Source of the DNA: Crambe crambe
Lineage: Eukaryota; Porifera; Demospongiae; Poecilosclerida; Crambeidae
Length of the DNA: 64,000 bases
Direction of reading: 5' to 3'
Assembly (NCBI GenBank): GCA_963924555.1
Contig: OZ004584.1
Span: 5,083,001-5,147,000 of the forward strand
The notes under the pieces are model-generated. The model made no database searches and was not told the DNA's origin. It saw nothing but the letters and a program-made list of their open reading frames with translations. The translations under genes and the position numbers were made by a program. Shown here piece after piece: positions 13,989-63,882 of this stretch (position 1 is the stretch's first letter; each line of letters starts with the position of its first letter).

Positions 13989-16900
13989 ATGACATCCATC
14001 GACCAAGTAAATTGTCGTGCAATTGAAATGGCTTTGAAATCAGGTGACTTCACAACAGCCATGCCTCTGATCAAAGATGTGAAGGATGAGACCAAGGATG
14101 AAACACTTACACTCCAGTTATTGAATAAATGCACTCCTCTTCACTATGCCTGCCAGCATGGAAGAGTAGATATTGTTGAAGAGCTCATCACTAAATACAA
14201 CTTCAGTATAGAGAGCAAGGATGATACTGGGTATACACCCATTCACATAGCAGCTCAGTATGGACACTTGAAAGTGTTCAAATGCATAGTCCACTTGCTA
14301 GCAAACGTGCAGTCTAAGTTAGATGACTATGTTGATAATGAGGGTAATACCCCATCACATATAGCGAGTAGACATGGTTGCCTTGATATCATCACATATC
14401 TCTTCTCCAAGGAAATTGGTTGTGGCTCAAACAAGACTAACGAAGAAGGTCTGTCCTGTCTCCACTTGGCTGCACAGCATGGCCACTTCCCTGTGGTGAG
14501 GTTTCTGTTGGAGGAAGTAGGTTGTGATATTACTCTTGTGGATGAGCATGGGAGGTCTCCTGCTTACCTTGCTGCTGGAGGAGGACATCTAGATATCCTC
14601 AAATACATGATAGAGGAGAAGCAAGCAGATGCACAATTCAAAACAACAAAGAAATGGAAGAGTGATAAATTCACCTTTGCAGCAGGCAGGTCATTAGTGC
14701 ATACGGCCAGTCGTGAAGGACACCTCAGTGTGCTCAAATACTTAGTGGACCATCAGAATTGTAATCCATCTTGTCAGGATGATGTGGGGACCACTCCATT
14801 GCTCCTTGCCTGTCAGCAGGGCCACATGGACATTGTGGTGTACCTGATTACTGACATCCACTGTGACCCTCACTGCAACAATGAGAGGTCTTGTCTCCAT
14901 TCTGCTAGTATTGGTGGTAGCCTGAATGTCATACAGTATCTTATTGATATTCACAACTGCGACTCATTGTCCAAGAACAAGTACAACAATACACCTCTTC
15001 ACTTTGCAGCTCTTAATGGGAGGTTGGCTGTTGTCAAGTACTTCATTGAAGACTTAAAGTGTGATCCTAATAGTAAGGGTCAATGGGGTAGAATACCTCT
15101 TCATCATGCCAGTCAAAATGGTCACCTTCATGTCGTACAGTATCTGATGGCTACTCATCAATGTGACCCTTCATGCATGGATGACAATAATCACACTCCG
15201 TTACATCTAGCCAGTCTAAATGGTCACTTAGCCATAGTGAAGTGCCTCACTGTGGAACACAAATGTGACCCACTGTCCAAGAACAAGGACAACAATACAC
15301 CTCTTCACTTAGCTGCTCTTAATGGGAAATTGGCTGTCGTCAAGTACTTCATTGAAAACTTAAAGTGTGATCCTGATAGTAAGGGTCAATTGGGTAAAAT
15401 ACCTCTTCATCATGCCAGTCAAAATGGTCACCTTGATGTCATACAGTATCTAATAGATACTCATCACTGTGATCCTTCATGCACAAATGATAATAATAGC
15501 ACTCCGTTACATCTTGCCAGTCAAGATGGTCACTTGGCCACAGTGAAGTGCCTCACTGTGGAACATAAATGTGACCCACTGTCCAAGAACAAGTACAATA
15601 ACACACCTCTTCACTTAGCTGCTCTTAATGGGAAATTGGCTGTCATCAAGTACTTCATTGAAGACTTAAAATGTGATCCTAATAGTAAGGGTCGATGGGG
15701 TAGAATACCTCTTCATTATGCCAGTGAAAATGGTCACCTTGATATCATACAGTATCTGATAGATACTCACCACTGTGACCCTTCATGCACAGATAAAGAT
15801 AATCACTCTCTGTTTCATCTAGCCAGTCTAAATGGTCACTTAACCACAGTGAAGTACCTCATTGTGGAACACAAATGTGACCCATTGTCCAAGAACAAGT
15901 ACAACGATACACCTCTTCACTTAGCTGCTCTTCAAGGGAGATTGGCTGTCATCATGTACTTCATTGAAGACTTGAAGTGTGATCCCAACAGTAAGGGTCA
16001 ATGGGGTAGAATACCTCTTCATCATGCCAGTCAAAATGGTCACCTTGATATCATACAGTATCTGATAGAAACTCATCATTGTGACCCTTCACGCACAGAT
16101 GAAAATAATTACACTCCCTTACACCTTGCCAGTCTAAATGGTCACTTGGCCACAGTGAAGTACCTCACTGTGGAACACAAATGTGACCCACTTTCCAAGA
16201 ACAAGTATAACAATACACCTCTTCACTTAACTGCTCTTAATGGGAGATTGGCTGTCATCAAGTACTTCATCGAAGAATTAAAGTGTGATTTCAAGAGTAA
16301 AGCTCAATGGGGTAGAATACCTCTTCATTATGCCAGTAAAAATGGTCACCTTGATGTCATTCAGTATCTGATAGATACTTGTCATTGTGACCCTTCATGC
16401 ACAGATAAAAATAATACCACTCCCTTACATCTTGCAAGTCAAGGTGGTCACTTAACCACAGTGAAGTACCTCACTGTGGAACACAAATGTGACCCACTGT
16501 CCAAGAATAAGGATAACAATACACCTCTTCACTTTGCTTCAATTAACGGGAGATTGACTGTCATCAAATACTTCATTGAAGACTTGAAGTATTCCAATCT
16601 TTTGCTGCTTAATTCTAAGAAGCTTTCTCCTCTTCATCTAGCTGCTAGTAAAATGCATATAGATGTATTTGATTATTCATTCGATAAGGTGAAAACTGAC
16701 CCTCTACTTAAAGAAGTACATTTTACTTTCCGTGATCAAAGCACACCTCTTCACTTAGCATGCCAGCATGGAAGCTTGAACAGTATTCAACATCTCATGA
16801 GCCTTAATTACAGCATTGAGGCTAAAGATTGCAATGGATACACTCCTTTTCATTCTGCTGCTCAGCATGGCCAATTGAAAACATTGAAGTATTTGCTACA

Positions 16901-19900
16901 ACACATATTTGATACAGATTACTTACAAGCTTATCATTATCAGACACTCTCTCTCTCTCTGAAAAAGGTGTATGATGAAGTAATTGTTTCTAATTATGTA
17001 GATAAAAATGGCAATACTCCATTGCATACTGCATGTATTTATGGTAAAAAGAACATCATATGCTTCCTGATGTTTGAGATAGGCTTAAATCCAAATTCTC
17101 TTGATAAAGATCATCACAATTGTCTTCATTTAGCTTGCATGCATGGACATCTCGACATTGTTGACTTATTGGTTACTGATGCAAAATGTGATGTTAATTG
17201 TATTGATTTGTATGGGAGATCCCCTGCTTATTTTGCTTGTGAAAATGGATACCTAGATATCCTCAAATATCTGATCACAAGAAAAGATGCCAATCCATTT
17301 ATTAAGACAATTCAGTCATGGACGGAAAAAAATGTTTCATATTTCCCGGGTCTTACATTGGTTCATATCGCATGCCTCAATGGACATGAAGAAATGATGC
17401 GATATCTGATAGAAAATTGTGGCATCAACCCCAAGAGTAAGGATGAACAAGGTGTTACTCCTCTCCACCTTGCTTGCCTAAGTGGTCATGCTGATATAGC
17501 CAAATATCTGATCACAGAACAGGATTGTGATCCTGATTCTTGTCTTAATGATGGAAGAACTTGCCTTCACACTGCAAGTGCAAGTGGTAACCTTAGTATG
17601 ATAAGATATTTGATCATGAAGAGCAAATGCAATGCATCGTCTCAAGATTATCACAGTCATGTTCCCTCCTACTATGCCTTAAGAGAAGGTCATTTGGAAG
17701 TTGCAAAGTATCTAGGGACTCTTCCAAATGAGAATGATAAAAAGGAGATATTTAAGTTATCTATTCTCGGGGGTAAGTGGGATATCGTCAAGTATCTTTT
17801 CGATGAGGGGAAATGCACAGTACAGGACTTGAATTCATGGGAGAAATTCCTATTTGACTCAAAATTCTCACACTTGGTAATTGATCCAGAGCCAGTTCAA
17901 AGTTTTAGTAACCTTTTTTCACAGCCAAGATTCACCAAAGCAAATGTACAAAAAGAAATCACTTCATCTCACTCTTCCAGAGAGTATCCAAAATCCAAAA
18001 TCCAAAATGAAGTAACTTTCTTGTCACAAGACAATCGAGAGCACAAAGAAGATTCAGATGCTGAGTGTTACACTTCTCAAAGTGATGACAGTGGACTGGA
18101 CACACAAACATCTTCATGTACTGATGTCTCAGAGGCTTTTAGTGATATCATTTCATCAGGGAGTGCTGATGAGGAAGAAGCACTAAACCACCATTGTAAT
18201 ATCAATTCCACCAAAGACGTGCATACTTCAAATACTTCTACTGCATCAAGTATTTCTGCAAGTGAAAAAACCCAAACAGCATTTCTAACTGAAAGAAGTA
18301 GAAATAAGTGTTTTGATTCAAAGGGTGGTTTGTATCATGATACTACACATGACATTGTAATCAGGGTACCAGAAGGGGCTATTCCTGAAAATAAAGTAAT
18401 AGAACTTGAAGTTGAAGCTACTTTGACCAGCACATTGAAGTTACCAGAAGGCTACAGATCTGTATCTCCAATCACTTGTGTGTGTGTTAAAAATGATCCA
18501 CATTTTAAATTTATCAAGCAAATTGAAGTTATGCTTCCCCATTTTCTGGATATTCAAAGCCAAACTTCAGTAGGTGATAACAAAATCTCTTTCATGAAGG
18601 CATATCATGGGGCAGATCACTTTGAATGCATTGGAGAGCAAGCAGAGTACTTTGATTATTATGGAGTTCTAGAAACAGAACACTTATGCTATTTATGTAT
18701 AGCTGCTGGCTTAAAGCATTTACCAGATGAGAAACTCAGTTTAATTCGTGTCATGCCTGAGATACAAAGTACTGAATGGTCATTGTACTTTTATGTCACT
18801 TACAGTCTACCAACATGTACCCAGGTATAATACTGTTGCTGTACATCTGAGTGTAACTATTACATAATTATACTTTTACAGATGATCAAAGAGTTATTCC
18901 AAGAGAGAGGCCACTTTGAATTAACATGGATTAGCGATTTCAAATTTAGTTCCATGGAAGATCCAATGGAAATTTTATATAAAAATGATGTCACAAGTTG
19001 GAAACTTTGCTGTAGTAATAATAATGAGGTAGGTTTAATAACTATTGGTGACTATAGATTTTAGAAATAACCAGTTTTGAGAGATTGGTACCAAACCAAT
19101 GGCTGCAGTTAGAGTTTCTCTGAAACAGTAGCATTAGAATGTCTCTTTTGCAATACTAGTCAGTTTGAATTCGTACATATAATTTTTAACTATAGTTCAG
19201 TGAATTCATGAATTATTTTGAAGACAATTTAATGTATACAATGTACTGTAAATTTAATCATGTTTTGATACTCTATAGATATTCCAAGACCAAGTGATGT
19301 ATGATACTGACATGACAGAAAGAGCTCTAAGAGATTGGTGTAACATGGATAGGTATCCACCTCGATTTGATATTCATGTGTCTGGAGAAGAAGGTAGTCC
19401 TAAAGATCGTGCCACATTTAAGTTTACAGGATGCACTAGGAAGATACAATCACAAATCATACTGAAATCCTGCACAGGTAATATAGCTACTGTATAATAA
19501 TTATAATATTATGGAGGATAGTCTGTAGTTACAGCTCTTCACCACCTGACACGTAATAAATTTCTTGTTGTTTTTTTTCAAAGATCATATAACTCAGGAT
19601 CAGCCACCTACCCCTTCTCTCAGGAATGGTTCTGAATTAGAATTAAGTGACTTGATGGATGAAGTTGCTGCACAGATACCAACTAAATGGCATCCCTTTG
19701 GAATAAAGATAGGAATACGGAAGGGAAGTCTAGATGTTATAGAACATAATCATCCCAAAGATCCTCAACGTTGTTTCACCGAAGTGTTTGCTCTATGGGA
19801 AAACCAAGTAACTAAAATGAAATATAGCTGGTCATCTGTGCTAAAAATATTGAGGGCACCTAGTATTAATGAGTGCAAAATTGCAGACCAGTTAGAACTG

Positions 19901-19921
19901 AAACTGAAAAACACAATATGA
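13989..19921 (+). CDS. Gene A: ankyrin-repeat, ZU5 and death-domain protein, four exons
   Basis: Exons are inferred from GT-AG sites with matching phase: 13989-18824, 18882-19028, 19279-19477 and 19584-19921 (phases 0, 0, 1), giving 1839 aa. Residues about 45-1280 hold about 35 ankyrin repeats (TPLHxAxxxGHL...YL). A Ser/Asp-rich linker with SDDSGLDT follows. ZU5 is at about 1446-1530 (GGLYHDTTHDIVIRVPEGA). The next region, across exons 2 and 3, is beta-rich and may be a UPA module. The death domain occupies about 1745-1839 (WHPFGIKIGI, FALWENQV, WSSVLKIL). No signal peptide or membrane segment is seen, so a cytoplasmic adaptor or scaffold is likely. ZU5-UPA-death modules occur in PIDD, UNC5 and ankyrins; the ligand or partner is unknown. 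The start is shared by all three paralogues. Splicing has not been verified by RNA. Confidence 0.85.
14970..16499 (+). repeat. Five tandem 306-bp units, each encoding three ankyrin repeats
   Basis: The codons for SKNK recur at 14970, 15276, 15582 and onward with an exact 306-bp period. Each unit encodes three 34-residue ankyrin types: SKNK..TPLHLAALNG, SKGQWGRIPLHHASQNG and CTDENN.TPLHLASLNG. A sixth unit is only one-third present. Gene B carries eight units. Confidence 0.9.
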
Positions 19922-21815: not shown

Positions 21816-21868
21816 GGAGACAGCAAGATCCCAGAATCCGTTATAATGGCTACTGATATTCATGCATT

Positions 21869-22351
21869 GTGAGTCTCACTCTTGCAGGAGTAATCAGCCA
21901 TCTACCTGTGTATGATGATATTCATTTAAGTATCCCCGCCTGGGCGGATCTCATATGTTTAGCCAAGTTACTAGTTAGCATCATGGCTTGTAAAGTATTA
22001 AAACTAGATGATGAATTGAAAGAACATGGTCTAACCAGAGGCCAGCTAAACATTCCTTGTTCTCTTGAAGTCAGTAGAGCCCTAGCCATGAAGATAGATG
22101 ATTGGAAACTACTAGCCCCCTTCATTGGGTTGAGTGAACAAGATACTGCTGCCATTCAAGAAGACAATAGAAGTCATAAAGTTCAATCTTTAGCTTCTCT
22201 GACTACATGGTGGAGGAAATTTGGAAGCAAAGCTACCTACCTGATGTTGGCTGAGGGTCTGGAGAAGATTGAACGTTTAGACTTGGTGAGAGAGCTGTGT
22301 GTGCTCTTTGAAGACAGTATTACCTCAAAATCTAAAGGTATAGCTGACTGA
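21869..22351 (+). CDS. Orphan death-domain exon
   Basis: An open frame ends with TGA at 22349-22351. From about residue 65 it encodes a death domain: SRALAMKIDDWKLLAPFIGL, SEQDTAAIQED, WWRKFGSKATYLML and IERLDLVRELCVLFE, the expected six-helix pattern with the conserved WxxLAxxxGL. A possible acceptor (CTCTTGCAG) precedes it at 21887, and no upstream partner exon could be joined. It differs from the gene A and gene B death domains, so it is a separate family member. It may be the last exon of a broken or unrecognised gene. Confidence 0.6.
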   Translation: MSLTLAGVISHLPVYDDIHLSIPAWADLICLAKLLVSIMACKVLKLDDELKEHGLTRGQLNIPCSLEVSRALAMKIDDWKLLAPFIGLSEQDTAAIQEDNRSHKVQSLASLTTWWRKFGSKATYLMLAEGLEKIERLDLVRELCVLFEDSITSKSKGIAD

Positions 22352-22701
22352 ATTATGTACACACTGATAGAGTTGATACTTATTACAGTCCATGGAATCT
22401 CCAATAAAAGACACTCTGAACAGGGACAGACCTTTTAACAAAGGACAGTCTTAGCCAAAACAGAACAACCTATTTGTCTCCATTATTTGGAGATGCCATT
22501 GCATGTATCAGGAAAAAATTCTATAGCTATAGCTACTTTATGTAGCTATGCCATCATGTGTGTAGCTATAATACTTCACTATACCTGTTATCATGGAGGA
22601 TGGTGGGATCAGCCATGTTACATCAAAAGTAAGCTAGAAGCTGAGTTAGCTATTCATTATTATTAGCCTGCTCCTTAGTTTACTTTGCATTGTTTTTTCA
22701 A
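22352..22701. other. Spacer before the split locus D exon
   Basis: AT-rich sequence, no gene. Its end (GCATTGTTTTTTCAAAG) resembles the intron 3 acceptor of genes A and B. Confidence 0.45.
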
Positions 22702-22769
22702 AGATGGTGCAACTAAAGATCAGCCACCTACCCCTTCTCTCAGGAATGATTCAGAATTAGAATTAAGTG

Positions 22770-25068
22770 TTCAATAGAATTAGTTCTCATAAAATTAGCT
22801 AATGAAACAAACCACCAACGTTTCGACCAGAATACTCTAGCCTTCATCAGGGTGATACAAAAAATGCACACAGAAACGTCCTTATATAGCTACGCTCGTT
22901 ATCTAGACAACGCACATGCAAACGCCTATGGATATTATATTATAGCATGCCAATACCTGAAGTCATAAACACTATTTCCCTAAGGCTTTAAGCGTAGAAA
23001 CCCAGCAACCTTGAAGTTCTAGACCTACATCCCTATTAAAACGCTGCTCTTCTGAAGTTAAACCAATATGAAGCGCTTCTTTTAGAAACAGCTCCTTCCT
23101 AGTCCTAGCTTGATCTACAACTGAAGCTTCCTTCCATAATATAGGATGATGATTACTCCAGGCATGATCAGCAACAGCAGATTTTTCTTGTTCTCCTCGT
23201 AGGCAAGCTTCCTTATGCTCCTTCAGCCTAGTTTCCAGCCTTCTCACCGTTCCACCAATGTAAAATTTTCCACAACTACAAGGTACCCTATAAACAACAT
23301 TAGAATTTTGGTCAGATGGTAACTTATCCTTAATCTTAGAAAGTTTGGATCTCAAACTAACCCCTGATCTAAAAAACAACCCTAATATCAAACTTTCTAC
23401 AAACCCTCCTAATGTCTTCACTAAGGCCTTTAACATATGGAATTACTATTTGTTTCTGTCTTTCTTCACTATTACTACTATTTTCCCTAGGTTTCGGTGC
23501 TATGGGATTTAAAGTTGCAGACAGAAAGGCTCTGGATAATCATTATTCACAAAAACTTTTTAAAGATGCATATGCTCCTTAACCAAGTCCTCTTCATGCG
23601 TAGTAACCCTTGTGGCTCTGTCATACAAGCTTTTAATAGCTCCTCTTTTTACATGTATTGGATGGTGTGATCTATAATTTAAATACCTATCCGTGTGTGT
23701 CTGTTTCCTATATACTGTGGATAAAATTTTACCATCATTGCCCACCTCTAATAAACAATCTAAGAAGGGAAGTTTACCATCTTTCTCTAACTCTACCGTA
23801 AATTTAATTGAAGGTCTAACTTTATTCAAATGTTCAAGGAACACCATTTAAGAACCTTTCTTCATAATACAAAATGTATCATCCACATATCTCTTCCAAA
23901 CTCTAGGCTTCACTGGTGATGTTTTCAGGGCCAGTTCCTCAAAAAACTCCATATACAGATTAGCTACCACAGCAGAAACAGGAGAACCCATGGCAGCACC
24001 TCTCACCTGTTTGTAAATAACATTCTTATAACTAAAATAAGTAGAGTTAAGGCATGTTTCTAAAAGCTCTGCTATTCTATCAGGTAATAACGTAGTCCTC
24101 TCATCCAGTGTCTCATCTTTCACCAGCATATCATGTATAACTTCCACAGCCTCATCTACCGGAACATTGGTAAAGAGAGAAGAAACATCAAAGCTAACAA
24201 GTGTTTCATCTGGACCTAAGTTTAAATCTTTAATCATGCTAATGAAATGCTCAGAATTTTTAACATAGGAATCAGATTTTCCCGCTAAAGGGGAAATTAA
24301 CTTTGTTACATATTTAGAGAGATTATAACATGGAGAATTTATACATGCAACAATAGGTCTTAAAGGAACATTTGCCTTATGTATTTTTGGCAGACCATAT
24401 AACCTAGGAGGTTTACTCCCTACAGGCCTAATCTTATTATATAGTTCATTTGGAACCTCTCCTGTCCTCTCTAATCTTTTTAATTCCCTAGTTAACTTAG
24501 CCTCCTGGGTTTTCGTTGGATCCTTATTTAGGATACTGTAGGTGTCAGAGCCCAACATCCCCATAAGCTTGGAGTCATAATCATCCTTCATCATCAGGAC
24601 CGTGGCGTTCCCTTTGTCCGCCGGCAAGATAACCACATCATCAAGCCTCTCCAGATCTTTCAAAGCCTTCCTCTGGTCCTTGCTCAAATTGTCCTTGGGT
24701 AGTTTCGCCCTTCTGATGAGTCCACATACTCTCCCTCTCAGGTCATTGGCCTCTTCCTCCTTCAGCCTCCTAGCCCCTCCTTCTACTGCTGCCACTGTAT
24801 TAATTAAAGGGAGTTTTTTAGGTGCCGGAACAAAATTCAAGCCTAATTTTAAAACTTCTTCCTCTGATGGGGCGAGTACCTTATTGGATAGATTTACTAT
24901 CCACTTATCCAAACCTTTGGGTCTTAACGATACTCCAGCCCTCTCTTCTTTCTTGTCCAGCATAGTTCGAAGTTTTTCCACATGTCTCCTCTTGGTGTTG
25001 CTAAAGGTCCTCTCTGCTACCTTAGAACAGAGTTCCTTGATTCTTCCAAAGTCTTCCTCCTCCATTGT
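22770..25068 (-). mobile_element. Penelope-like retroelement, copy L, inactivated
   Basis: Read on the minus strand, three blocks encode one element. 25065-23848 is the reverse transcriptase: DVVILPADKGNATVL, GLPKIHKANVPLRP, LVSFDVSSLFTNVP, GAAMGSPVSA and the catalytic WKRYVDDTFCIM. 23847-23560 is the thumb region. 23436-22972 is a GIY-YIG endonuclease: VVYRVPCSCGKFYIGGT and RLKEHKEACL. This order is diagnostic of GIY-YIG-bearing Penelope-like elements. A stop follows KKGS, and frameshifts separate thumb and nuclease. The 5' end is truncated. It forms one arm of a palindrome with 25084-27274. Confidence 0.92.
22814..22860 (-). ncRNA. Hammerhead-ribozyme-like motif, copy L
   Basis: On the minus strand CTGATGA (22850-22844) is followed by a wobble-rich stem II and CGAAAC. 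The arrangement is the mirror of 27188-27236. Penelope-like elements are known to carry small hammerhead motifs. Stem I and the cleavage site are weak here, so activity is unproven. Confidence 0.45.
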
Positions 25069-25083
25069 TGACTCCAGTCTTGA

Positions 25084-27274
25084 CTGGACAAGAAAGAAGA
25101 GAGGGCTGGAGTATCGTTAAGACCCAAAGGTTTGGATAAGTGGATAGTAAATCTATCCAATAAGGTACTCGCCCCATCAGAGGAAGAAGTTTTAAAATTA
25201 GGCTTGAATTTTGTTCCGGCACCTAAAAAACTCCCTTTAATTAATACAGTGGCAGCAGTAGAAGGAGGGGCTAGGAGGCTGAAGGAGGAAGAGGCCAATG
25301 ACCTGAGAGGGAGAGTATGTGGACTCATCAGAAGGGCGAAACTACCCAAGGACAATTTGAGCAAGGACCAGAGGAAGGCTTTGAAAGATCTGGAGAGGCT
25401 TGATGATGTGGTTATCTTGCCGGCGGACAAAGGGAACGCCACGGTCCTGATGATGAAGGATGATTATGACTCCAAGCTTATGGGGATGTTGGGCTCTGAC
25501 ACCTACAGTATCCTAAATAAGGATCCAACGAAAACCCAGGAGGCTAAGTTAACTAGGGAATTAAAAAGATTAGAGAGGACAGGAGAGGTTCCAAATGAAC
25601 TATATAATAAGATTAGGCCTGTAGGGAGTAAACCTCCTAGGTTATATGGTCTGCCAAAAATACATAAGGCAAATGTTCCTTTAAGACCTATTGTTGCATG
25701 TATAAATTCTCCATGTTATAATCTCTCTAAATATGTAACAAAGTTAATTTCCCCTTTAGCGGGAAAATCTGATTCCTATGTTAAAAATTCTGAGCATTTC
25801 ATTAGCATGATTAAAGATTTAAACTTAGGTCCAGATGAAACACTTGTTAGCTTTGATGTTTCTTCTCTCTTTACCAATGTTCCGGTAGATGAGGCTGTGG
25901 AAGTTATACATGATATGCTGGTGAAAGATGAGACACTGGATGAGAGGACTACGTTATTACCTGATAGAATAGCAGAGCTTTTAGAAACATGCCTTAACTC
26001 TACTTATTTTAGTTATAAGAATGTTATTTACAAACAGGTGAGAGGTGCTGCCATGGGTTCTCCTGTTTCTGCTGTGGTAGCTAATCTGTATATGGAGTTT
26101 TTTGAGGAACTGGCCCTGAAAACATCACCAGTGAAGCCTAGAGTTTGGAAGAGATATGTGGATGATACATTTTGTATTATGAAGAAAGGTTCTTAAATGG
26201 TGTTCCTTGAACATTTGAATAAAGTTAGACCTTCAATTAAATTTACGGTAGAGTTAGAGAAAGATGGTAAACTTCCCTTCTTAGATTGTTTATTAGAGGT
26301 GGGCAATGATGGTAAAATTTTATCCACAGTATATAGGAAACAGACACACACGGATAGGTATTTAAATTATAGATCACACCATCCAATACATGTAAAAAGA
26401 GGAGCTATTAAAAGCTTGTATGACAGAGCCACAAGGGTTACTACGCATGAAGAGGACTTGGTTAAGGAGCATATGCATCTTTAAAAAGTTTTTGTGAATA
26501 ATGATTATCCAGAGCCTTTCTGTCTGCAACTTTAAATCCCATAGCACCGAAACCTAGGGAAAATAGTAGTAATAGTGAAGAAAGACAGAAACAAATAGTA
26601 ATTCCATATGTTAAAGGCCTTAGTGAAGACATTAGGAGGGTTTGTAGAAAGTTTGATATTAGGGTTGTTTTTTAGATCAGGGGTTAGTTTGAGATCCAAA
26701 CTTTCTAAGATTAAGGATAAGTTACCATCTGACCAAAATTCTAATGTTGTTTATAGGGTACCTTGTAGTTGTGGAAAATTTTACATTGGTGGAACGGTGA
26801 GAAGGCTGGAAACTAGGCTGAAGGAGCATAAGGAAGCTTGCCTACGAGGAGAACAAGAAAAATCTGCTGTTGCTGATCATGCCTGGAGTAATCATCATCC
26901 TATATTATGGAAGGAAGCTTCAGTTGTAGATCAAGCTAGGACTAGGAAGGAGCTGTTTCTAAAAGAAGCGCTTCATATTGGTTTAACTTCAGAAGAGCAG
27001 CGTTTTAATAGGGATGTAGGTCTAGAACTTCAAGGTTGCTGGGTTTCTACGCTTAAAGCCTTAGGGAAATAGTGTTTATGACTTCAGGTATTGGCATGCT
27101 ATAATATAATATCCATAGGCGTTTGCATGTGCGTTGTCTAGATAACGAGCGTAGCTATATAAGGACGTTTCTGTGTGCATTTTTTGTATCACCCTGATGA
27201 AGGCTAGAGTATTCTGGTCGAAACGTTGGTGGTTTGTTTCATAAGCTAATTTTATGAGAACTAATTCTATTGAA
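25084..27274 (+). mobile_element. Penelope-like retroelement, copy R, inactivated
   Basis: This is the head-to-head partner of copy L. Coordinates of matching bases sum to 50044 at both ends (22770 with 27274; 24960 with 25084), so the 2191-bp arms have no net indel. Protein blocks at 25132-26196 (reverse transcriptase with YVDD), 26197-26484 and 26608-27072 (GIY-YIG) read the same as copy L. They share the same stop after KKGS and the same frameshifts. It is 5'-truncated by about 120 bp relative to L. The spacer 24961-25083 holds the remaining 5' sequence of L. Confidence 0.92.
27188..27236 (+). ncRNA. Hammerhead-ribozyme-like motif, copy R
   Basis: CTGATGA at 27194-27200 is followed by GGCTAGAG, a short loop and TTCTGGTC, which can pair with several G-U wobbles, then CGAAAC at 27219-27224. 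This fits the hammerhead core CUGAUGA, stem II, GAAA. The apparent stem III is minimal, as in known Penelope-associated motifs. It lies downstream of the GIY-YIG frame. Confidence 0.5.
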
Positions 27275-27308: not shown

Positions 27309-27530
27309 TTAGAATTAAGTGACTTGATGGATGAAGAATGCAGTATAGTTGGTCATCTGTGCTAGCTAGGGCACTAGTATTAACAAGTGCAAAATTGCAG
27401 ACCAGTTAGAACAGAAATTGAAATTATAGCTAAAAACTATAATTATGAATCGATTTTATGGTCACTTTAATTTTTACTTTTTTCCATCTTTTGCAGCCAG
27501 CATTATAGTTATTAGCTATAGCTACTAAAG

Positions 27531-27620
27531 CGTTATTCAGAGGAGTTATAAAACAGTGTAGTGTGTTCTAGCTAATAAGCAGTTATTCAGAGGAGTTATA
27601 AAACAGTGTAGTGTGTTTTT
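27531..27620. repeat. Tandem duplication, 54-bp period
   Basis: GTTATTCAGAGGAGTTATAA and the following AACAGTGTAGTGTGTT occur at 27531 and again at 27585. The second copy overlaps the 3' end of the receptor tail frame on the minus strand. Confidence 0.75.
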
Positions 27621-27917
27621 TGGAGGGCTCACCATAGCTATTAATTTGAGATTGTTGACTGTACTGGGATGGGACTCCATAAGCAGAACATGCTGTGAGC
27701 TGATAGGCTTCATGTGTTGTGGGAATGCCTAAATTCCCATAGAGTTTCACTTCCTCATAGTCATGCTTGACCACTTCAGTTGTAGTCTCATAAGCTGGAC
27801 ATTGAGTGCAATTGAAGACACTGGGAGGATCTGCTATTTCTTCTCTTGATGAGGAACTGGTGTTATTCACAACAGTTTGATCTGATTGAAACTGTGCATT
27901 CTGGCTTTTCTTCTCTG
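27583..27917 (-). pseudogene. Tyrosine-rich receptor tail exon, locus D copy
   Basis: The minus-strand frame is homologous to the last exon of the receptor at 61582-63882 (SREEIADPPSVFNCTQC, AYETTTEV, YEEVKLYGNL, EAYQLTACSAYGV). It continues about 20 residues further than the block B copy, with SYGEP and a different C-terminus. Tyrosines in YxxV/YxxL contexts suggest phosphorylation docking sites. The upstream membrane and ectodomain exons are absent: 40 bp beyond the exon the sequence becomes the fold-back at 27958. It is therefore an isolated remnant. It lies convergent to the locus D death-domain exon, as at block B. Confidence 0.75.
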
Positions 27918-27957
27918 AACAGCATTTATAATACAAGAGGAATAAGAAGAATAATAA

Positions 27958-28258
27958 TAAGTAAGGGAAAAATCATTTCTTGAAATGAAAAAAAGATGTA
28001 GGGATGACCACTGCTCAAAAAACTAAGGAAACAAGAAGGATGGAAATGGGATTAATCTTTGTTCTGTATATCCAGCCAACAATCCCTACATATACGTTGG
28101 GTAGCTTCAGATTATAGTGCAGTAATGTACGTATATGTAGGAATTGTTGGCTGGATATACAGAATAACCCATTTCCATCCTTCTTGTTTCCTTACTTTTT
28201 TGAGCAGTGGTCATCCCTAATCTTTTTTCATTTCATGAAATGCTTTTTCCCTTACTTG
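27958..28258. mobile_element. Fold-back palindrome 1 of the 28-35 kb family
   Basis: Both arms carry AAGTAAGGGAAAAA, a mini-hairpin, GTAGGGATGACCACTGCTC and TGTATATCCAGCCAACAAT in mirrored order around a central non-palindromic core. The right arm runs on to ACTTGTTCCTGG, an undisturbed outer end. It adjoins the truncated receptor exon at 27917. Confidence 0.8.
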
Positions 28259-35337: not shown

Positions 35338-35537
35338 AGAAAATATGGCTTCCAATGATTGAATTAGTCGAGTGCTGTGCTCCGTAGTGTCTCCTTTTTC
35401 ATCGACTCTTTCGAGGATCAACGAGTAGAAAAGATCGTAGTTGGTAGAATTTGGAGTGGATTTATCCAGAAATCATAGCTGTAGCTTGAGTGGTTCGAGA
35501 GATATGGTTGTCTAAGAAGAAGAAGAATAACAACATT

Positions 35538-35776: not shown

Positions 35777-35896
35777 TAATTATATCGCCACTATCCAGTT
35801 TGTACACCATAGAGAGGGGCTTGCTTCGCTTGTGATCGTCACTCCAAATATTATAGAGTGATCTAGTCCTCCATACGAGCCATTAGCTAATTAGAG
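35777..35896. repeat. Block C spacer
   Basis: It is paralogous to about 54070-54215 in block B and 11125-11180 in block A (TTTGTACACCATAGAGAGGG, GATCGTCACTCC). No gene is seen. Confidence 0.65.
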
Positions 35897-37456: not shown

Positions 37457-38279
37457 AATGTGCAGTTGAGTGCTTCAATACTATAGTATGGCCAGAAATA
37501 TTGGCAGAGGATTTAATTTGGTGGTTTGGCAGTTGAAGATTGCAATTGCCAACACAATTGTGAAGTCTTTTTTACATAGGTATGATAAAGGTTGTCAACA
37601 TTACAAATCTGAAAATATCACGAGGTACAAGGTCGATCGATAACTGAAGCTATTGTCCTTAAGTTGGTGTCCAGATAATTTTGTAGGATACGCTGTCCCC
37701 TAACACAGCTTCCAACAGAGAATTCAGACACCATTGATCAATTGAGAGCAGCTGCTCATGCTTACATGCATGTGCATGCTCAATGTAGCATGCTGCACAT
37801 ATAAGCAAGCTTGCACATGTGCCAATGAGCATGCACATTCCACCAAATTAAACGAGAGCAATCCGCCAAATTTAACTTCCGCCAATATTTCCAGCCATAC
37901 GGTATGTTCAGTTTGATTTCAAAATTGGCCAATTATAAAGTTAATGGATCCTTCATCAAGTAGCTACATATTTGCAAGGGTATAAAATCTGATTGCTCCT
38001 CAATAATTATAATTTTTGTTTGTCATTATGTAGATTCGGTGGACATAATTTATTTCATGCGAATATTCTTCATTATAATAATAATTGCAATAAAAACAAA
38101 AATACATTGTTGCTGGCTATAACAAACCTAGTAATATCACTGTATTGATCATTCATCACTTCACATAGCTACGTAGCTACGTAAACAATGTAATAATTGC
38201 CACGATTCGACAATTGACATCCTTTCTTGTGTAAGTACAATTCAAATTAATAAGCTGTCTACATAGCTTGAGTTCAACA
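37457..38279 (+). promoter_or_regulatory. Block C copy of the ankyrin-gene 5' flank
   Basis: About 820 bp is collinear with 54235-55045 and, around the insertion there, with block A. It includes TATTTCCAGCCATACGG, TTGCCACGATTCGACAATTG and the start-proximal ACATAGCTTGAGTTCAAC. It keeps the uninterrupted ATGTAG site that the 11815 element used. If active it would transcribe into the truncated gene and the palindromes beyond. Confidence 0.5.
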
Positions 38280-38371
38280 TGACATCCATCGACCAAGTAA
38301 AATGTCGTGCGATTGAAATGGCTTTGAAATCAGGTGACTTCATAACAGCCATGCCTCTGATCAAAGAATAA
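38280..38371 (+). pseudogene. Locus C: 5' stub of the ankyrin-ZU5-death gene
   Basis: ATG plus about 29 codons (MTSIDQVKCRAIEMALKSGD, then ITAMPLIKE) match genes A and B, after which a TAA occurs at the junction with fold-back sequence. All ankyrin, ZU5 and death exons are missing at this locus. Confidence 0.9.
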
Positions 38372-55045: not shown

Positions 55046-58000
55046 ATGACATCCATCGACCAAGTAAAATGTCATGCAATTGAAATGGCTTTGAAATCAG
55101 GTGACTTCACAACAGCCATGCCTCTGATCAAAGATGTGAAGGATGAGACCAAAGATGAAACACTTACACTCCAGTTATTGAATAAATACACTCCTCTTCA
55201 CTATGCCTGCCAGCATGGAAGAGTAGATATTGTTGAAGAGCTCATCACTAAATACAACTTCAGTATAGAGAGCAAGGATGATACTGGGTATACACCCCTT
55301 CACATAGCAGCTAAGTATGGACACTTGAATGTGTTCAAATGCATAGTCCACTTGCTAGCAAACTTGCAGTCTGAGTTAGATGACTATGTTGATAATGAGG
55401 GTAATACCCCATCACACCTAAATGTCGTACAGTATTTGATAGATACTCATCATTGTGACCCTTCATGCACAGGTGAAAATAATATCACTCCCTTACACCT
55501 TGCCAGTCTAAATGGTCACTTGGCCACAGTGAAGTATCTCACTATGGAACACAAATGTGACCCACTGTCCAAGAACAAGTATAACGATACACCTCTTCAC
55601 TCTGCTTCTCTTAATGGAAGATTGGCTGTTGTCAAGTATTTTATCGAAGACTTAAAGTGTGATCCAAACAGTAAGGGTCAATGTGGTAGAATACCTCTTC
55701 ATCATGCCAGTCAAAATGGTCACCTTGATGTTATACAGTATCTGATAGATACTCATCATTGTGACCCTTCATGCACAGATGAAGATAATTACATTCCCTT
55801 ACACCTTACCAGTCAAAATGGTCACTTAACCACAGTGAAGTACCTCACTGTGGAACACAAATGTGACCCACTGTCCAAGAACAAGTACAACAATACACCT
55901 CTTCACTTAGCTGCTCTTAATGGGAGATCGGCTGTCGTCAAGTACTTCATTGAAGACTTAAAGTGTGATCCCAACGGTAAGGGTCAATGGGGTAGAATAC
56001 CTCTTCATTATGCCAGTCAAAATGGTCACCTTGATATCATACAGTATCTGATAGATACTCATCATTGTGACCCTTCATGCACAGATGAAGATAATAACAC
56101 TCCCTTATACATTGCCAATCTAAATGGTCACTTGGCCACAATGAAATACCTCACTGTGGAGCACAAATGTGACCAACTATCCAAGAATATGGATGGCAAT
56201 GCGCCTCTTCACTTAGCTGCTCTTTATGGGAGATTGGTTGTCGTCAAATACTTCATTGAAGACTTAAAGTGTGATCCTAATAGTAAGGGTCAATGGGGTA
56301 GAATACCTCTTCATTATGCCAGTCAAAATGGTCACCTTGATGTCATACAATATCTGATAGATACTCATCACTGTGACCCTTCATGCACAGATGAAAATAA
56401 TTACACTCCCTTACATCTTGCCAGTTTAAATGGTCACTTGGCCACAGTGAAGTACCTCACTATGGAGCACAAATATGACCCACTGTCCAAGAACAACTAT
56501 AACGATACACCTCTTCACTTTGCTTCTCTTAATGGGAGATTGGCTGTTGTCAAGTATTTTATTGAAGACTTAAAGTATGATCCAAACACTAAGGGTCAAT
56601 GGGGTAGAATGCCTCTTCATTATGCCAGTCAAAATGGTCACTTTGATGTCATACAGTATCTTATAGATACTCACCACTGTGACCCTTCAGGCACAGATGA
56701 AAATAATTACACTCCCTTACACTTTGCCAGTCTAAATTGTCACTTGGCCACAGTAAAGTACCTCACTGTGGAGCACAAATGTGACCCACTGTCCAAAAAT
56801 AAGTATAAAGATACACCTCTTCACTCTGCTTCTCTTAATGGGAAATTGGCTGTTGTCAAGTATTTCATTGAAGATTTAAAATGTGATCCAAACAGTAAGG
56901 GTCAATGGGGTAGAATACCTCTTCATCATGCCAGTCAAGATGGTCACCTTGATGTCATACAGTATCTGATAAATACTTATCACTGTGACCCTTCATGCAC
57001 AGATGAAAATAATTACACTCCCTTACACCTTGCCAGTCGAGATGGTCACTTAACCACAGTGAAGTACCTCACTGTGGAACACAAATGTGACCCACTGTCC
57101 AAGAACAAGTATAACGATACACCTCTTCACTTTGCTGCTCTTAATGGGAAATTGGCTGTTGTCAAGTATTTCATTGAAGACTTAAAGTGCGATCCCAACA
57201 GTAAGGATCAATGGGGTAGAATACCTCTTCATTATGCCAGTCAAAGTGGTCACTTTGATGTCATGCAATATCTGATAGATACTCATCATTGTGACCCTTC
57301 ATGCACAGATGAAAATAATTACACTCCCTTACATTTTGCCATTCTAAATTGTCACTTGGCCACGATAAAGTACCTCACTGTGGAGCACAAATGTGACCCA
57401 CTGTCCAAGAATAAGTATAAAGATACACCTCTTCACTCTGCTTCTCTTAATGGGAGATTGGCTGTTGTCAAGTACTTCATTGAAGAATTAAAGTGTGATC
57501 CAAATAGTAAGGGTCAATGGGGTAGAATACCTCTTCATTATGCCAGTCAAAATGGTTACCTTGATATTGTACAGTATCTGATAGATACTCATCACTGTGA
57601 CCCTTCATGCACAGATGAAAATAATTACACTCCCTTACATCTTGCCAGTCAAAATGGTCACTTAACCACAGTGAAGTACTTCACTGTGGAACACAAATGT
57701 GACCCACTGTCCAAGAACAAGTATAACGATACACCTCTTCACTCTGCTTCTCTTAATGGGAGATTGGCTGTCGTCAAGTACTTCATTGAAGACTTAAAGT
57801 GTAATCCCAACAGTAAGGGTCAATGGGGTAGAATACCTCTTCATCATGCCAGTCAAACTGGTCACCTTGATGTCATACAGTATCTGATAGATACTCATCA
57901 TTGTGACCCTTCATGCACTGATGAAAATAATACCTCTCCCTTACACCTTGCCAGTCGATTTGGGCACTTGGCCACAGTGAAGTACCTCACTGTGGAACCT

Positions 58001-61000
58001 CTCCACTTAGCCTGCCAGCGTGGAAACTTGAGCAATATTCAACATCTCATGAGCCTTAATTACAGCATTGAGGCTAAAGATTGCAATGGATGCACTCCTC
58101 TTCATTATGCTGCTCAGCATGGCCAATTGAAAACATTAAAGTATTTGCTGCAACACATATTTGATACAGTCGAAGAAGATTACTTACAAGCATATTGTTA
58201 TCAGTCACTCTCTTTGTCGATTAAAGAGACTTATAGTGAAATAATTGCTTCAAATTATGTTGATAAAAATGATAACACTCCATTGCACACTGCATGTATT
58301 CATGGTAAAAAGAACATCATATGCTTCCTGATGTTTGAGATAGGTTTAAATCCCAATTTTTTCAATAAAGATCATCTCAATTGTCTTCATTTAGCTTGCA
58401 TGCATGGACATATTGACATTGTTAAATTATTGGTTACTGAGGGAAAATGTGATATTAATTGTATCGATTTGTATGGGAGATCCCCTGCTTATTTTGCTTC
58501 TGAAAAAGGATACCTTGATATTCTCAAATATCTGATCACAGGAAAAGGTGCCAATCCATTCATCACAACAATTCTATCATGGACCAAAGGGAATACTTCA
58601 TATTTTCCTGGTCTTACATTAGTTCATATCGCATGCCTTGAAGGACATGAAGAAGTGATAAAATATCAGATTGAAGATTGTGGTATTGACCCCATGAGTA
58701 AAGATGAACATTGTGTCACTCCTCTTCATCTTGCTTGCCAGGGTGGATACACTGAAATAGTAAAATATCTGATCATTAAACACCATTGTGATCCTCATTC
58801 TTGTCTTAATGATGGACGAAATTGCCTTCATGCTGCAAGTGGAAGTGGTAATCTAGATACGATAAAATATCTGATCACCAAGTGCAACTGCCATGCATGG
58901 ACTCAAGATGATCATAGTCATGTTCCCTCCTACTATGCCTTAAGAAAAGGTTATTTGGAAGCTGCAAAGTATCTAGGGTGTCTTCCAAATGAGAATGATA
59001 AAAAGGAGATATTTAAGCTATCTATCCTTAAGGGAAAGTGGGATATTGTCAAGTACCTTCTTGATGAAGGGAAATGCACAGTACATGACTTAAATTCATG
59101 GGAGAAAATCTTATTTAACTCAAAATTCCCACACTTGCCTGAAATAACTTCACCACTAGATTATCTCTACAAAAGAGAGCATGAAGAAGAATACTATGAT
59201 TCAGATGGTGAGTCTTACATTTCTCAGAGTGATGACAGTGGACTGGATACACTAACATCTTCATGTACTGATGTCTCAGAGGCTCTAAATGATATCACTT
59301 CATCAGAGAGTGCTGATGAGGAAGAAGCACTAAACCACCATTGTAATATCAATTCCACCAAAGACGTGCATACTTCAAATACTTCTACTGCATCAAGTAT
59401 TTCTGCAAGTGAAAAAACCCAAACAGCATTTCTAACTGAAAGAAGTAGAAATAAGTGTTTTGATTCAAAGGGTGGTTTGTATCATGATACTACACATGAC
59501 ATTGTAATCAGGGTACCAGAAGGGGCTATTCCTGAAAATAAAGTAATAGAACTTGAAGTTGAAGCTACTTTGACCAGCACATTGAAGTTACCAGAAGGCT
59601 ACAGATCTGTATCTCCAATCACTTGTGTGTGTGTTAAAAATGATCCACATTTTAAATTTATCAAGCAAATTGAAGTTATGCTTCCCCATTTTCTGGATAT
59701 TCAAAGCCAAACTTCAGTAGGTGATAACAAAATCTCTTTCATGAAGGCATATCATGGGGCAGATCACTTTGAATGCATTGGAGAGCAAGCAGAGTACTTT
59801 GATTATTATGGAGTTCTAGAAACAGAACACTTATGCTATTTATGTATAGCTGCTGGCTTAGAGCATTTACCAGATGAGAAACTCAGTTTAATTCGTGTCA
59901 TGCCTGAGATACAAAGTACTGAATGGTCATTGTACTTTTATGTCACTTACAGTCTACCAACATGTACCAAGGTAATACTGATGCTGTATATCTGAGTGTA
60001 GCTATTATCTTACATACATATAATTATACTTTAACAGATGATCAAAGAGTTATTCCAAGAGAGAGGCCGTTTCAAAGTAACATTGGTAGGCTACTTCAAA
60101 TTTCGTTCCATGAAAGATCCGATAGAAATTTTGTGGGAGAATGATGTCACAAGTTGGAGACTTTGCTGTAATAATAATAATAAGGTACTGTAGGTATACG
60201 TAGCTATTATTGTACTGAATTTTGTGGGGGGATAGCTCTGAAAAATTTTTTTTCCACACCTGTTAGTTCCGTTTTTTTGTTCATACATAGATATTCCAAG
60301 AGGAAGTGATGTATGATTCTGACATGACCGAAGAAGAACTAAGAGATTTGTGTAATTTGGATATGTATCCACCTCATTTTGATATTCAGGTGTCAGGAGA
60401 AAGAGATAGTCCTAAAGATTGTGCCACATTTAAGTTTACAGGATCGACTAAGGAGTTACAATCACAAGTCGTACTGAAATGCTACACAGGTAAATTTAAT
60501 ATTAACAGTGTAAAGTAATAACTGTTCATCCCTTAATTTCACAATTAAGTGCCTGAATATGGCAGCCAAGATATGGCTTGGCATTCCTGTGAAAAGCAAG
60601 CTTCTGCTGCATGCTCTTCAACTATTGACAGAGCTACAATGAGCTAGCTACTGTGAATTTTTTCTTTGTATTATTTCTTAAAGATGGTGGAACTCAAGAT
60701 CAGCCACCTACCCCTTCTCTCAGGAATGGTTGTGAATTAGAATTAAGTGACTTGATGGATGAAGTTGCTGCACAGATACCAACCAAGTGGCATCCCTTTG
60801 GAATAAAGATAGGAATACGAAAGGGAATGCTAGATGTTATAGAACAAAATCATCCCAAAGATCAACTTCGTTGTTTTGCTGAAGTGTTTGCTGTATGGGA
60901 AAACCAAGTAACTAAAATGGAATATAGCTGGTCATCTGTGCTAGAAATATTGAGGGCACCTAGTATTAATGAGTGCAGAATTGCAGACCAGTTAGAACAG

Positions 61001-61009
61001 AAGCTATGA
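55046..61009 (+). CDS. Gene B: ankyrin-repeat, ZU5 and death-domain protein, four exons
   Basis: Exons are 55046-59971, 60038-60184, 60291-60489 and 60684-61009, with exon 2 and 3 lengths (147 and 199 bp) and phases the same as in gene A; total 1865 aa. About 38 ankyrin repeats span residues about 45-1345. An in-frame deletion near 55420 fuses NTPSH to LNVVQYLIDTHH, removing about five N-terminal repeats present in A, and a second join near 57995 (KYLTVEPLHLACQRG) removes three more. ZU5 is at about 1476-1560, a beta-rich UPA-like part follows, and the death domain is at about 1775-1865. It has no membrane segment and is probably cytoplasmic. It is convergent with the receptor at 61582-63882. 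Partners are unknown and the exon model is inferred from splice consensus. Confidence 0.85.
55568..57997 (+). repeat. Eight tandem 306-bp three-ankyrin units
   Basis: The period is the same 306 bp as in gene A (14970-16499), with eight units, the last slightly short. Units differ at a few codons, for example NDTPLHSASLNG against NNTPLHLAALNG, and alternate in blocks, suggesting duplication of multi-unit segments. Confidence 0.9.
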
Positions 61010-61581
61010 ATTGATTTAATCTTTTTGTCAATCCTTTGCAGCTATTATAATTATTAGCTATATATACTAAAGTAACATTTAGCTCAAGAATTACACATTC
61101 ACTAAAGGTTACAGGGTTTTTTTTTTTGCTTTGTTGTTGTTATTGTTTTAAAGCCAGCTAGCTATTTTTAAAATTTTTGTTTAGGTGACTGTTCAGTTTT
61201 TAAATCTCTACATTTGCTAGCTATAACAGTGGGACATTTGTGACATAGCTAATTGGATCTAATATAGCTGCAGTCATAGAAGCATCAAAAATGAGCTATC
61301 ATAGCTATAATATGCATCCCTATTCCAGCAGCTTTACACTACGTACATGAGCTGCACATTCTGCACATGTAAGATTAATAACTGACCAGGTACTCTTGAT
61401 CTCTAGCTGTAGCTTCCTTAGTTATATAGGGTTGGTATACAAACCCTAACTAAGGAAGATTAATTTTAGTGCCAATTATAGCTAATTTTTTAATCTTCTG
61501 TACATATATACTAATGAGAAGTTAACTATTCAGTGTTATAAAAAAAAATGTAGTGTGTTTTTGGGGGGCTCGCCATAGCTG
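61010..61581. other. Intergenic gap between convergent gene B and the receptor
   Basis: 572 bp of AT-rich sequence. Its start resembles 27430-27520 at locus D (CTTTTGCAGC...ATTATAATTATTAGCTATA). A hairpin CTTCCTTAGTTATATAGGGTT facing AACCCTAACTAAGGAAG lies at 61408-61461. No gene is seen. Confidence 0.55.
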
Positions 61582-63882
61582 TTAATTTGAGGTTGAATGC
61601 ACTGGGACTCCATAAGCAGAACATGGTGTGAGCTGATAGGCTTCTTGTGTTGTGGGAATGTCTAAATTGCCATAGAGTTTAACATCCTCATATTCATGCT
61701 TGTCCACTTCAGTTGTAGTCTCATAAGCTGGACATTGAGTGCAATTGAAGGCACTGGGAGGATCTGCTATATCTTCATACATGACTCTTGATGAAGAACT
61801 GATAACAGTCGGATCTAATTGAAACTCTACATTCTGGCTTTTCTTCTCTGAGCTGTTAGAGCATTAAAAATGTTTTGTAATACAAATAGCGAGCTAGCTA
61901 CATAATATTCACATACTTACCTAGGATTTCTGTTTGATTTACATTTCTTATGAAATAGTAAAGTGGTAGTTCCACATAACACTATTCCAATTACCACGAG
62001 AACAGTAACTCCAATACCTACACCTACAGCTAATACAATTAAAAATTAATTTTGTTGATGGAATGGCCAGTTATGAGAACTATAGGTATTTACCACATAG
62101 CTACAGGCATCATAAATACAATTATGATGGCTACATATAACATAATTATAGCCAGAACAATAATTTTATATGCCCCGTAATTTCATGATCTCAAATAAGC
62201 ATCAGGCTATTATGCTAATTTTTTTGGCCTTTTATACTTTTGAGCAATTCCCCAAAAAGTTACCCATTTTGCTCCTCTTTGACCCCATTATGCTCTAGAT
62301 TGTGCCCATAACCTTACTGAAAAATTGAGGTTTTCTTCTTTACACACACTTACTCAGCCTAAAGATTGTTCAGCCATGTTATAATGCACTGATAAGATGT
62401 CATCATTGCATGCATTCCAATGATACATATGCATGATTTAAAAATAATTATGGTTCATGAGATAACTTGCTTCCTGTTTGGAAGCATAGTATGCCTGAAA
62501 ATTCACCTATTACATATGCTAGCATTATGCCTGATGCTCAGGAGTACCTATCATGCCTAAAATTATTCCGGCATAATAGGCTGGTCCCTACTCTCAAAGT
62601 AAACATTTTGAAACTTAGCTATAAGTATTGCTGTGCAAAATAATGGAGGAAAAAATGCTAGCTAGATAACTAGCTATATTGCCTTATGGCAATAGCTAGC
62701 TCTGAAAAACTTAGTCTCATAATTAAAATGGTTAGATCTGCTCATTGAGTTAATTGAAATCCTGCTGGGTATGCATGAAGAAACTAACAACTTTAGCTCA
62801 CCTATTAAAGAGTCATTTGGCATAGTGTTATTTCCTGTAATTGGTGAAAAAGTCTCTGTTCCATCTATATTAAATATTTGAAAAATTTAAAGCAAATATT
62901 ATGGATTTAGAGTATATCAATACTGACCTTGGATATTCACCAGACACTCCTTTGAATATGATGGAAACTCATCCAATATTGTCATGTTTAGTATTGCAAA
63001 TATCGTGGCATAATAGGTCCCACTCCTGCTCACATTGATGGAGACTGAAGTGTTACGATCAAGGGTCTGATCCACCATCAATCTACGAACACTCTCAACA
63101 TTTGTTGGGTCATTGAACTGAAGAATGATCTGAAAACCACTTGCCATCAAAGTACTTGGGAATTCACACGATGCTAGAATATTTCCATTGCTATGACTCA
63201 CATCACAGTTTTCAAGATGAGGAGATCTAGGGACAGGAACTGACCCTGTACATTTATGATATAATCAAGGAAAGGATAAAAAGAAATTCTCTTAACAATA
63301 ATTATTGATACCTGTTTGGGTGACATTGATCTTCTGAATATAGGCTGGATAACCAACACCAGATAGTAATCTTCCATTACTTTCCACGTCATAAAACAGA
63401 ACATTATATTTTCCAGGTCTCAAGTAAAGTGGCATTGTATGTTCTTCATTTCTTTGAATGAAGATAAATACAGATGAGTAAAAATCGACACATCCATCAT
63501 GAACAGAGATCAAGATACAGAGTGCTCCTTTGGCTTTGGTGTTCTCAACACAAGATATGTTGACTGTGGAGTTTTCTATATCAGTGCATTGAACATCATG
63601 CGTACCTGCAATACCAAACGTTTAGCTACGTATAAACAAAAAGACAGCAAACTAACATCATAACCTACTCAGCATCAGATTTAGTGTGTTTGCTCCAGCA
63701 CTATTGCTGACATTAAATGTTACATTGTAGTGACGATTCAATATCAAGTAGAAACTTGTAATTTGAATGATTGTGCGATCACTAGCATTGATAGTGGCAA
63801 TCATATTTCGCACACTGATTTCTTCATCATCATAGTTCCAAATAGAAATGCCAACAACATTAACTCTACAAACCATGACAGA
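61582..63882 (-). CDS. Single-pass receptor with a tyrosine-rich tail, 3' part of gene
   Basis: Six phase-consistent exons: 63882-63669, 63605-63312, 63245-62928, 62864-62802, 62029-61921 and 61852-61582, giving 422 residues. The ectodomain shows fibronectin-III-like text (LNRHYNVTFNVSNSAG) and two further Cys-containing beta-rich modules (LRPGKYNVLFYDVES; NVSRSGTYYATIF). A TM helix follows (VGVGIGVTVLVVIGIVLCG), then KCK. The tail holds YEDI, YETT, YEDVKLYGNL and YQLT. The first five introns are phase 1, except the last (phase 2). The 5' exons and signal peptide lie outside the window. A Tyr-phosphorylation signalling role is inference. The C-terminus is shorter than at locus D because of small indels. 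Confidence 0.75.

Follow-up and report, generated by a model that had tools for sequence, protein, structure and literature searches.

When two unrelated genes face each other at several places in a short stretch of DNA, their association may reflect a shared function or simply the way in which the stretch was copied. We asked which holds for a locus of the sponge Crambe crambe where a gene encoding ankyrin (ANK) repeats, a ZU5 domain, and a death domain converges on a gene for a receptor with a multi-tyrosine tail. The window analyzed here is a stretch of 64,000 nucleotides, C6:5083001-5147000 (contig OZ004584.1), in a genome of 143 Mb and 119 contigs, which was searched with its exons. An earlier note on the window had taken duplication of the pair as a unit to suggest linked function or co-regulation. 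We consider it likely, with a probability of about 0.72, that ordinary local segmental duplication gave rise to the repeated convergent pair: the array shows a convergent pair multiplied as one block, and duplicated neighbors alone are no proof of joint function.

The pair near the right-hand end of the window, unit B, comprises the following features (window coordinates unless C6 is given):

55046..59971, plus strand, ANK exon 1: ankyrin repeats, linker, and ZU5 (ZU5 query stretch 59438-59962), from the open frame, Pfam, and the gene model
60038..60184, plus strand, ANK exon 2, in a UPA-like position, from the GT-AG model, without a Pfam match
60291..60489, plus strand, ANK exon 3, from the GT-AG model, without a Pfam match
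60684..61009, plus strand, ANK exon 4: death domain and stop, Pfam Death below cut-off
61010..61581, no strand, gap of 572 bases between the convergent stops at 61009 and 61582
61582..61852, minus strand, receptor tail exon with six tyrosines (gene model, as for all receptor exons)
61921..62029, minus strand, receptor transmembrane exon
62802..62864, minus strand, receptor juxtamembrane exon
62928..63245, minus strand, receptor ectodomain exon d5, unnamed domain
63297..63605, minus strand, receptor ectodomain exon d4, unnamed domain
63669..63863, minus strand, receptor ectodomain exon d3, unnamed domain
C6:5147134-5148733, minus strand, beyond the window, receptor FN3, Ig, and signal-peptide exons

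The separation of 573 bp given in the earlier note is thus exact as a stop-to-stop distance. Its start for the receptor, at 63882, needs correction, as the exons for FN3, Ig, and the signal peptide fall outside the window.

The ANK-ZU5-Death gene of unit B has four exons, GT-AG introns, and an intact frame of 1865 aa plus stop. Its first exon encodes a long repeat array (Pfam Ank_2 E=0; Ank, Ank_2, Ank_3, Ank_4, and Ank_5 with 23-32 stretches each) followed by ZU5 (E=1.5e-6, 28.8 bits, cut-off 21); Pfam found this one ZU5 stretch only, and neither a UPA nor a second ZU5 in the gene. The death domain lies below the Pfam cut-off of 22.6 bits in both unit B (E=0.0029, 18.1 bits) and the related unit A (22.5 bits), and the unit B Death exon has at least 86 matches in the genome, itself included (E<=1e-5; 150 of 451 candidates scored). 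A PDB sequence search with the ZU5-to-Death stretch returned the ZU5 of ZO-1 as best match (E 0.00087), with CRADD, UNC5B, and FADD at E 0.31-0.57 and weaker unrelated matches among them. AlphaFold2 modeling of the ZU5 exon alone, with no relatives, was useless (mean pLDDT 34), and megablast of the 3' part of the gene against plasmids gave no match, as expected.

The receptor splice model encodes 648 aa plus stop, with signal peptide, Ig, FN3, d3-d5, juxtamembrane, transmembrane, and tail segments and seven of eight introns in phase 1; it is one of 768 open-frame models, picked for shared intron phase, so that the exact limits of its exons are uncertain. Both Ig (E 0.0028) and FN3 (E 0.0033) fall below their Pfam cut-offs, d3-d5 have no Pfam family above cut-off, and a PDB sequence search with the ectodomain found nothing (best E 0.34). 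The family is large: the tail has at least 60 genome matches (E<=0.001) and d5 at least 37, each count including the query itself. Receptor matches on contig C66 score the same as copies at C6:7750184-7751381, and C66 is perhaps an unplaced haplotype.

The six tail tyrosines of unit B lie in VMYEDI, PAYETT, HEYEDV, KLYGNL, EAYQLT, and SAYGVP. KLYGNL and EAYQLT each occur in 11 of the 13 tails read, and of the other two tails the C18 stretch was read in part only. The pattern [SIVL]xYxx[IVL], which we take to be the ITIM consensus, is found in nine of the 13 and is absent from locus D, C14, C6:6.468, and C6:7.853. In its modeled signal peptide, Ig, FN3, transmembrane segment, and multi-tyrosine tail, the receptor is like the ITIM/ITAM Ig receptors, from which it differs in having three ectodomain exons without a Pfam family above cut-off and in tail motifs (YEDV, YGNL) that seem closer to other SH2 sites, YED[IV] presumably to those of Src-family proteins and YxN (YGNL) to those of Grb2. 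FIGQY, the tail motif of L1CAM-type ankyrin-binding receptors, occurs in none of the 13 tails read, some of which are partial matches only, and Pfam recognized no death fold in the receptor tail.

Elsewhere in the window, relatives of one or both genes occur together with unrelated elements:

13977..19921, plus strand, unit A ANK-ZU5-Death gene (ORFs 13977-18830 and 19550-19921), receptor not adjoining; plus-strand matches to ZU5 (18291-18815), exon 2 (18882-19028), exon 3 (19279-19476), and Death (19592-19906)
21857..22351, plus strand, orphan Death exon of an unrelated family, outside the pair (Pfam Death E=3e-12)
22679..22769, plus strand, locus D Death exon, 5' remnant, 89% identical to 60660-60749
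22770..27274, no strand, Penelope-like element, a 4.5-kb inverted dimer with RT and GIY-YIG ORFs that splits the locus D Death exon
27337..27423 (approximate), plus strand, locus D Death exon, 3' remnant, 83-84% identical to units A and B
27583..27972, minus strand, locus D receptor tail remnant (homology 27670-27918), 74-76% aa identity to the unit B tail
38279..38368, plus strand, ANK first-exon fragment, N-terminal 30 aa, 90% aa identity

At locus D, remnants of both genes are indeed convergent, at a distance that with our boundaries is about 160 bases (27423 to the stop at 27583), against the 154 reported before. The Penelope-like dimer within it has two 2191-base arms, 100% complementary, with 123 bases between them; its ORFs match RVT_1 (E=3.4e-8) and, below cut-off, GIY-YIG (E=0.0013). 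No receptor exon was found at E<=1e-3 between unit A and locus D. The two additional receptor-like fragments described earlier were not recovered, the only matches at E<=1 being unit B, the locus D tail, and a weak d5 match at 21508-21603 (E 0.47). The orphan death-domain exon counted into the same cluster is real and belongs to another family: its nearest relatives (54-78% related) form an array on C16:1.25-1.47 Mb, which rules it out as a member of the pair. We also observed a dense repeat block at 27959-35780, with six to seven copies of about 300 bases in both orientations, and, at 45073-45429, a 118-aa open frame without a credible Pfam family and with three other genome matches (two on C18, one on C21).

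The window sits inside an array spanning C6:4.987-5.150 Mb, in which exon searches over 234 kb revealed three convergent pairs (u1, u2, and B) and two decayed pairs, all on one 9.08-Mb contig. The order is u0, u1, uX, u2, a Death remnant, A, D, an N-terminal fragment, and B. Besides B and D, these are, in C6 coordinates:

C6:4987039-4991192 (approximate), u0, a decayed pair: ANK without ZU5 (4987039-4991097) meets receptor d4 fragments (4991092-4991192)
C6:5000098-5011697, u1: ANK gene (5000098-5007720, ORF of 2196 aa) and receptor (5008305-5011697)
C6:5032465-5034231, uX: ZU5-Death with a sacsin front, receptor absent
C6:5049393-5058088, u2: ANK gene (5049393-5054102), frameshifted and with a stop in ZU5, and receptor (5054695-5058088)
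C6:5079185, Death remnant between u2 and A
C6:5096989-5102906, unit A: ANK gene, receptor absent
C6:5121279, N-terminal ANK fragment between D and B

The pair therefore recurs beyond the window. Stop-to-stop distances are 576 (u1), 584 (u2), and 573 (B) bases. All seven receptor exons searched align end to end in u2, where the adjoining ANK gene is frameshifted.

That the pair was duplicated as a unit is borne out by homologous segments at C6:4999229-5013510 (u1), 5048592-5060104 (u2), and 5137152-5150139 (B), which share their block edges. The repeated segment, 11.5-14 kb long, holds little beyond the two genes: homology starts somewhat before the ANK start, runs through introns and intergenic DNA, and stops somewhat beyond the first receptor exon, where the alignment ends. 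Over about 7 kb, units u2 and B share 98-100% identity, and their differences are similarly frequent outside exons (35/4162) and inside them (15/2619; Fisher p 0.24), a pattern that fits recent copying. When u1 is compared with B, the rate of differences is lower in coding DNA (40/2616) than in non-coding DNA (138/3716, a count that includes an indel-rich stretch; p 1e-7), and thus some exons are probably under constraint.

Identity within the array is patchy. Unit u1 matches A at 100% (rounded) in five 200-base ANK windows in which it matches B at 81-93%; from the ANK windows to the Ig exon u1 and B are otherwise 94-100% identical, except for one 86% window over an intron, and beyond the Ig exon they are 89-100% identical around an indel-rich gap. 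Across a 661-base tract over ZU5, units A and B differ at one position, and the neighboring 200-base windows are 66-94% identical. Near-identical ZU5 sequences (0-1 differences in 525 bases) are carried by ANK ORFs of 2196, 1617, and 1653 aa. Judged from these alignments, the patchy identity and the u2/B rates are what recent copying combined with gene conversion leaves behind. In a tree of 13 tails, u1, u2, and B group together (support 99/99), and the four array tails need one change (support 49/57). The locus D tail is, on this tree, not clearly in the u1/u2/B clade. We infer a single origin of the pair, a point on which the tail tree is not decisive; the pairing may predate the recent copies, may have been retained over a period, or may have had two origins.

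We then considered whether the pairing is more than local. Among the 60 tails listed, three have a related Death or ZU5 match within 5 kb and four within 20 kb, all in the array, and no such match lies within 100 kb of the remaining 56; conversely, three of the 85 Death matches listed lie within 5 kb of a tail. For these counts one overlapping Death row of the 86 (C6:5079185) was set aside, leaving 85, and 22 ZU5 rows were taken from lists of 90 and 30, the rest lying on tail-less contigs or being repeats. In four receptor loci elsewhere (5-7 kb each), searches at E<=0.01 detected neither ANK nor ZU5 nor Death. Outside the array, the nearest ANK relative among the matches listed is at C6:4.03 Mb (57-60% identity), and no listed tail lies within 900 kb of it. 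A generic Death search gave 965 first-look candidates, of which 150 were scored and all 150 matched. It added one Death exon near tails, at C9:7004969. The nearest tail start is 10.7 kb away from this exon, and each of the five C9 tails is less than 100 kb from it; the exon lies on the same strand as the tail and is ruled out as a convergent pair. The genome survey proposed in the earlier note thus does find further paired copies, among the matches listed only in this one array, and a genome-wide pairing of receptor and adaptor is ruled out by the three of 60 tails listed.

By chance, a Death candidate would be expected within 600 bases of 0.49 of the 60 tails if all 965 candidates are real, and of 0.08 if only the 150 scored are counted. 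The pair could therefore have arisen once by chance, with a probability that these figures do not fix well. Under the duplication reading, a member of the Ig-FN3 receptor family and a member of the ANK-ZU5-Death family would have become convergent neighbors, the 11.5-14 kb segment with both genes would have been copied several times inside C6:4.987-5.150 Mb, and the copies would have recombined by unequal exchange and gene conversion. Segmental duplication suffices to account for the pairing. Several observations count against it: the near-constant spacing and the two-gene block are also expected of a selected pair; some exons are probably under constraint, given the u1/B difference rates; the locus D tail does not clearly group with the other three; and the lower chance figure, 0.08 neighbors for the 150 scored Death exons, speaks against a chance origin.

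The inference from duplication to linked function is not supported by the same counts. If selection had kept the two genes as a receptor-adaptor unit, the ANK-ZU5-Death protein would bind the receptor or act downstream of it, and linkage would keep matched versions together at an immune or allorecognition locus. Persistence of the block in three units and its nearly constant spacing fit this proposal, as does the joining, in both members, of a more variable part to a more constant one (Ig and tail; ANK repeats and ZU5). We nevertheless regard such a unit as unlikely. Only three of the 60 tails listed are paired, all in a single array; the two genes decay or occur independently, with ANK-family units that have no receptor (A and uX) and a receptor beside a frameshifted ANK gene (u2); and the tail has no recognized death fold, so that contact through death domains is not suggested. 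Substitution rates speak both for and against it: by the Nei-Gojobori method, dN/dS among diverged copies is higher in the Ig exon (0.48-0.78) than in the tail (0.19-0.41), in line with a variable and a constant part, but d3 (0.39-0.67) and d4 (0.39-0.71) overlap the Ig range, and every diverged pair is below 1. Values for close array copies, from 0 to >1 on a handful of changes, were given no weight, and the set excluded the broken u2 ZU5 and ANK exons, the C18 tail, and a number of exons from single paralogues. The receptor and the ANK-ZU5-Death protein are probably not obligate partners.

Co-regulation without physical partnership, in which convergent transcription with overlapping 3' ends would let one gene dampen the other, draws on the short, nearly constant gap. 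A description of the Amphimedon genome stresses its high compactness and minimal intergenic regions (PMC5429095). Such compactness fits the proposal, but it also makes short convergent gaps ordinary, so that a gap of about 0.57 kb is unremarkable; since related Death or ZU5 matches are absent from the 100 kb around the other 56 tails listed, we find co-regulation very unlikely. Finally, uncollapsed haplotypes could have been counted as tandem copies, for which the 98-100% identity of u2 and B over about 7 kb might be cited. Such an assembly artefact is highly improbable, given that all units lie on a single contig, that the alignment ends at about 5150 kb, that u1 and B are just 81-93% identical in the ANK windows noted above, and that the u2 ANK gene is frameshifted.

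The array is a natural set of variable sensing ends on a near-identical ZU5, beside a large receptor family with a constrained tail. The earlier view of the window as part of an immune-type cluster is consistent with this array of receptor and death-fold genes, on circumstantial evidence: the large receptor family, an Ig exon more diverged than the tail, ANK arrays of variable length on a near-constant ZU5 end, and a fusion of sacsin, HEPN, and ZU5, followed by a Death exon. In sponges exposed to microbial molecules, genes containing Ig, ankyrin, and DEATH domains are reported to have changed expression (PMC6208332), a shift compatible with an immune role in general. Sea urchin Sp185/333 genes are likewise described as clustered, similar genes with large segmental duplications (PMC5103432); the sponge array is also tandem and segmentally duplicated, but here two unrelated families were copied together. 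We noticed no paper on this receptor family or on the pair in open PubMed Central, a scope that does not prove absence.

The fusion lies in uX, where one 4537-aa open frame (C6:5019406-5033016) runs into the array's ZU5. In a Pfam scan its last 3332 aa contain SACS, HATPase, and HEPN above cut-off and DnaJ below, then ZU5; a Death exon lies downstream of the frame. Its sacsin part has a 96% copy with one in-frame stop at C6:5182275-5195148. Going by the alignment, the ZU5-Death end is joined to a different front in uX, at a point within the ANK-ZU5 linker. Sacsin-like proteins fused to DEATH domains are described in Amphimedon queenslandica (PMC3710099); uX resembles them in its sacsin front and death end, a likeness drawn from description only, and differs in that its death end is the array's own ZU5-Death cassette.

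Among better known proteins, the unit B gene has the order of canonical ankyrins (ANK repeats, ZU5, death domain) but, where these have ZU5-ZU5-UPA, it has one ZU5 and no Pfam-recognized UPA or second ZU5. In a survey of nine sponge species, genes with ANK repeats plus ZU5-ZU5-UPA were not identified (PMC5135030). PIDD, NLRP1, and CARD8 offer another parallel, with ZU5 before a death-fold domain and a repeat region in front, although the PIDD/FIIND proteins carry LRRs or NACHT in front, in place of ANK repeats. Self-cleavage where ZU5 ends is reported for CARD8 and NLRP1 (at SF/S) and for PIDD (at HF/S; PMC3210808). Where HF/S or SF/S would fall, a position that we equated by eye, the sponge proteins have H-[LF]-C, with Cys for the cleaving Ser and Leu or Phe before it. 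H-[LF]-C-[YFS], late in the ZU5 exon, is invariant in all seven aligned ZU5 exons from five contigs (unit B, uX, and five from elsewhere in the genome); in unit B (window 59438-59971) it may be the self-cleavage motif of PIDD and NLRP1 in a Cys-based form, and its Cys could be the nucleophile for a putative self-cleavage.

If these likenesses extend to function, the receptor would be a type I membrane protein whose tail tyrosines dock SH2 proteins. It would sense outside, and the ANK-ZU5-Death protein, as a cytosolic sensor or adaptor, inside; the latter might work like PIDD or NLRP1, with variable repeats that sense, a death domain that signals, and a ZU5 (and probably UPA) region that regulates, perhaps by self-cleavage at the conserved H-[LF]-C. 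Such cleavage, if true, would amount to a PIDD- or NLRP1-like switch in sponges. A bolder and quite unlikely proposal is that the array is a sensor-swapping locus, in which a near-constant ZU5-UPA-Death and receptor cassette is homogenized as its upstream recognition end is exchanged (ANK lengths; sacsin-HEPN in uX), the matched set being inherited for immune or self/non-self recognition and the ZU5 arming itself at the Cys-based H-[LF]-C. Numerous ZU5 matches also form array-like clusters elsewhere in the genome, at C3:7.49-7.83 Mb and C1:8.3-9.25 Mb.
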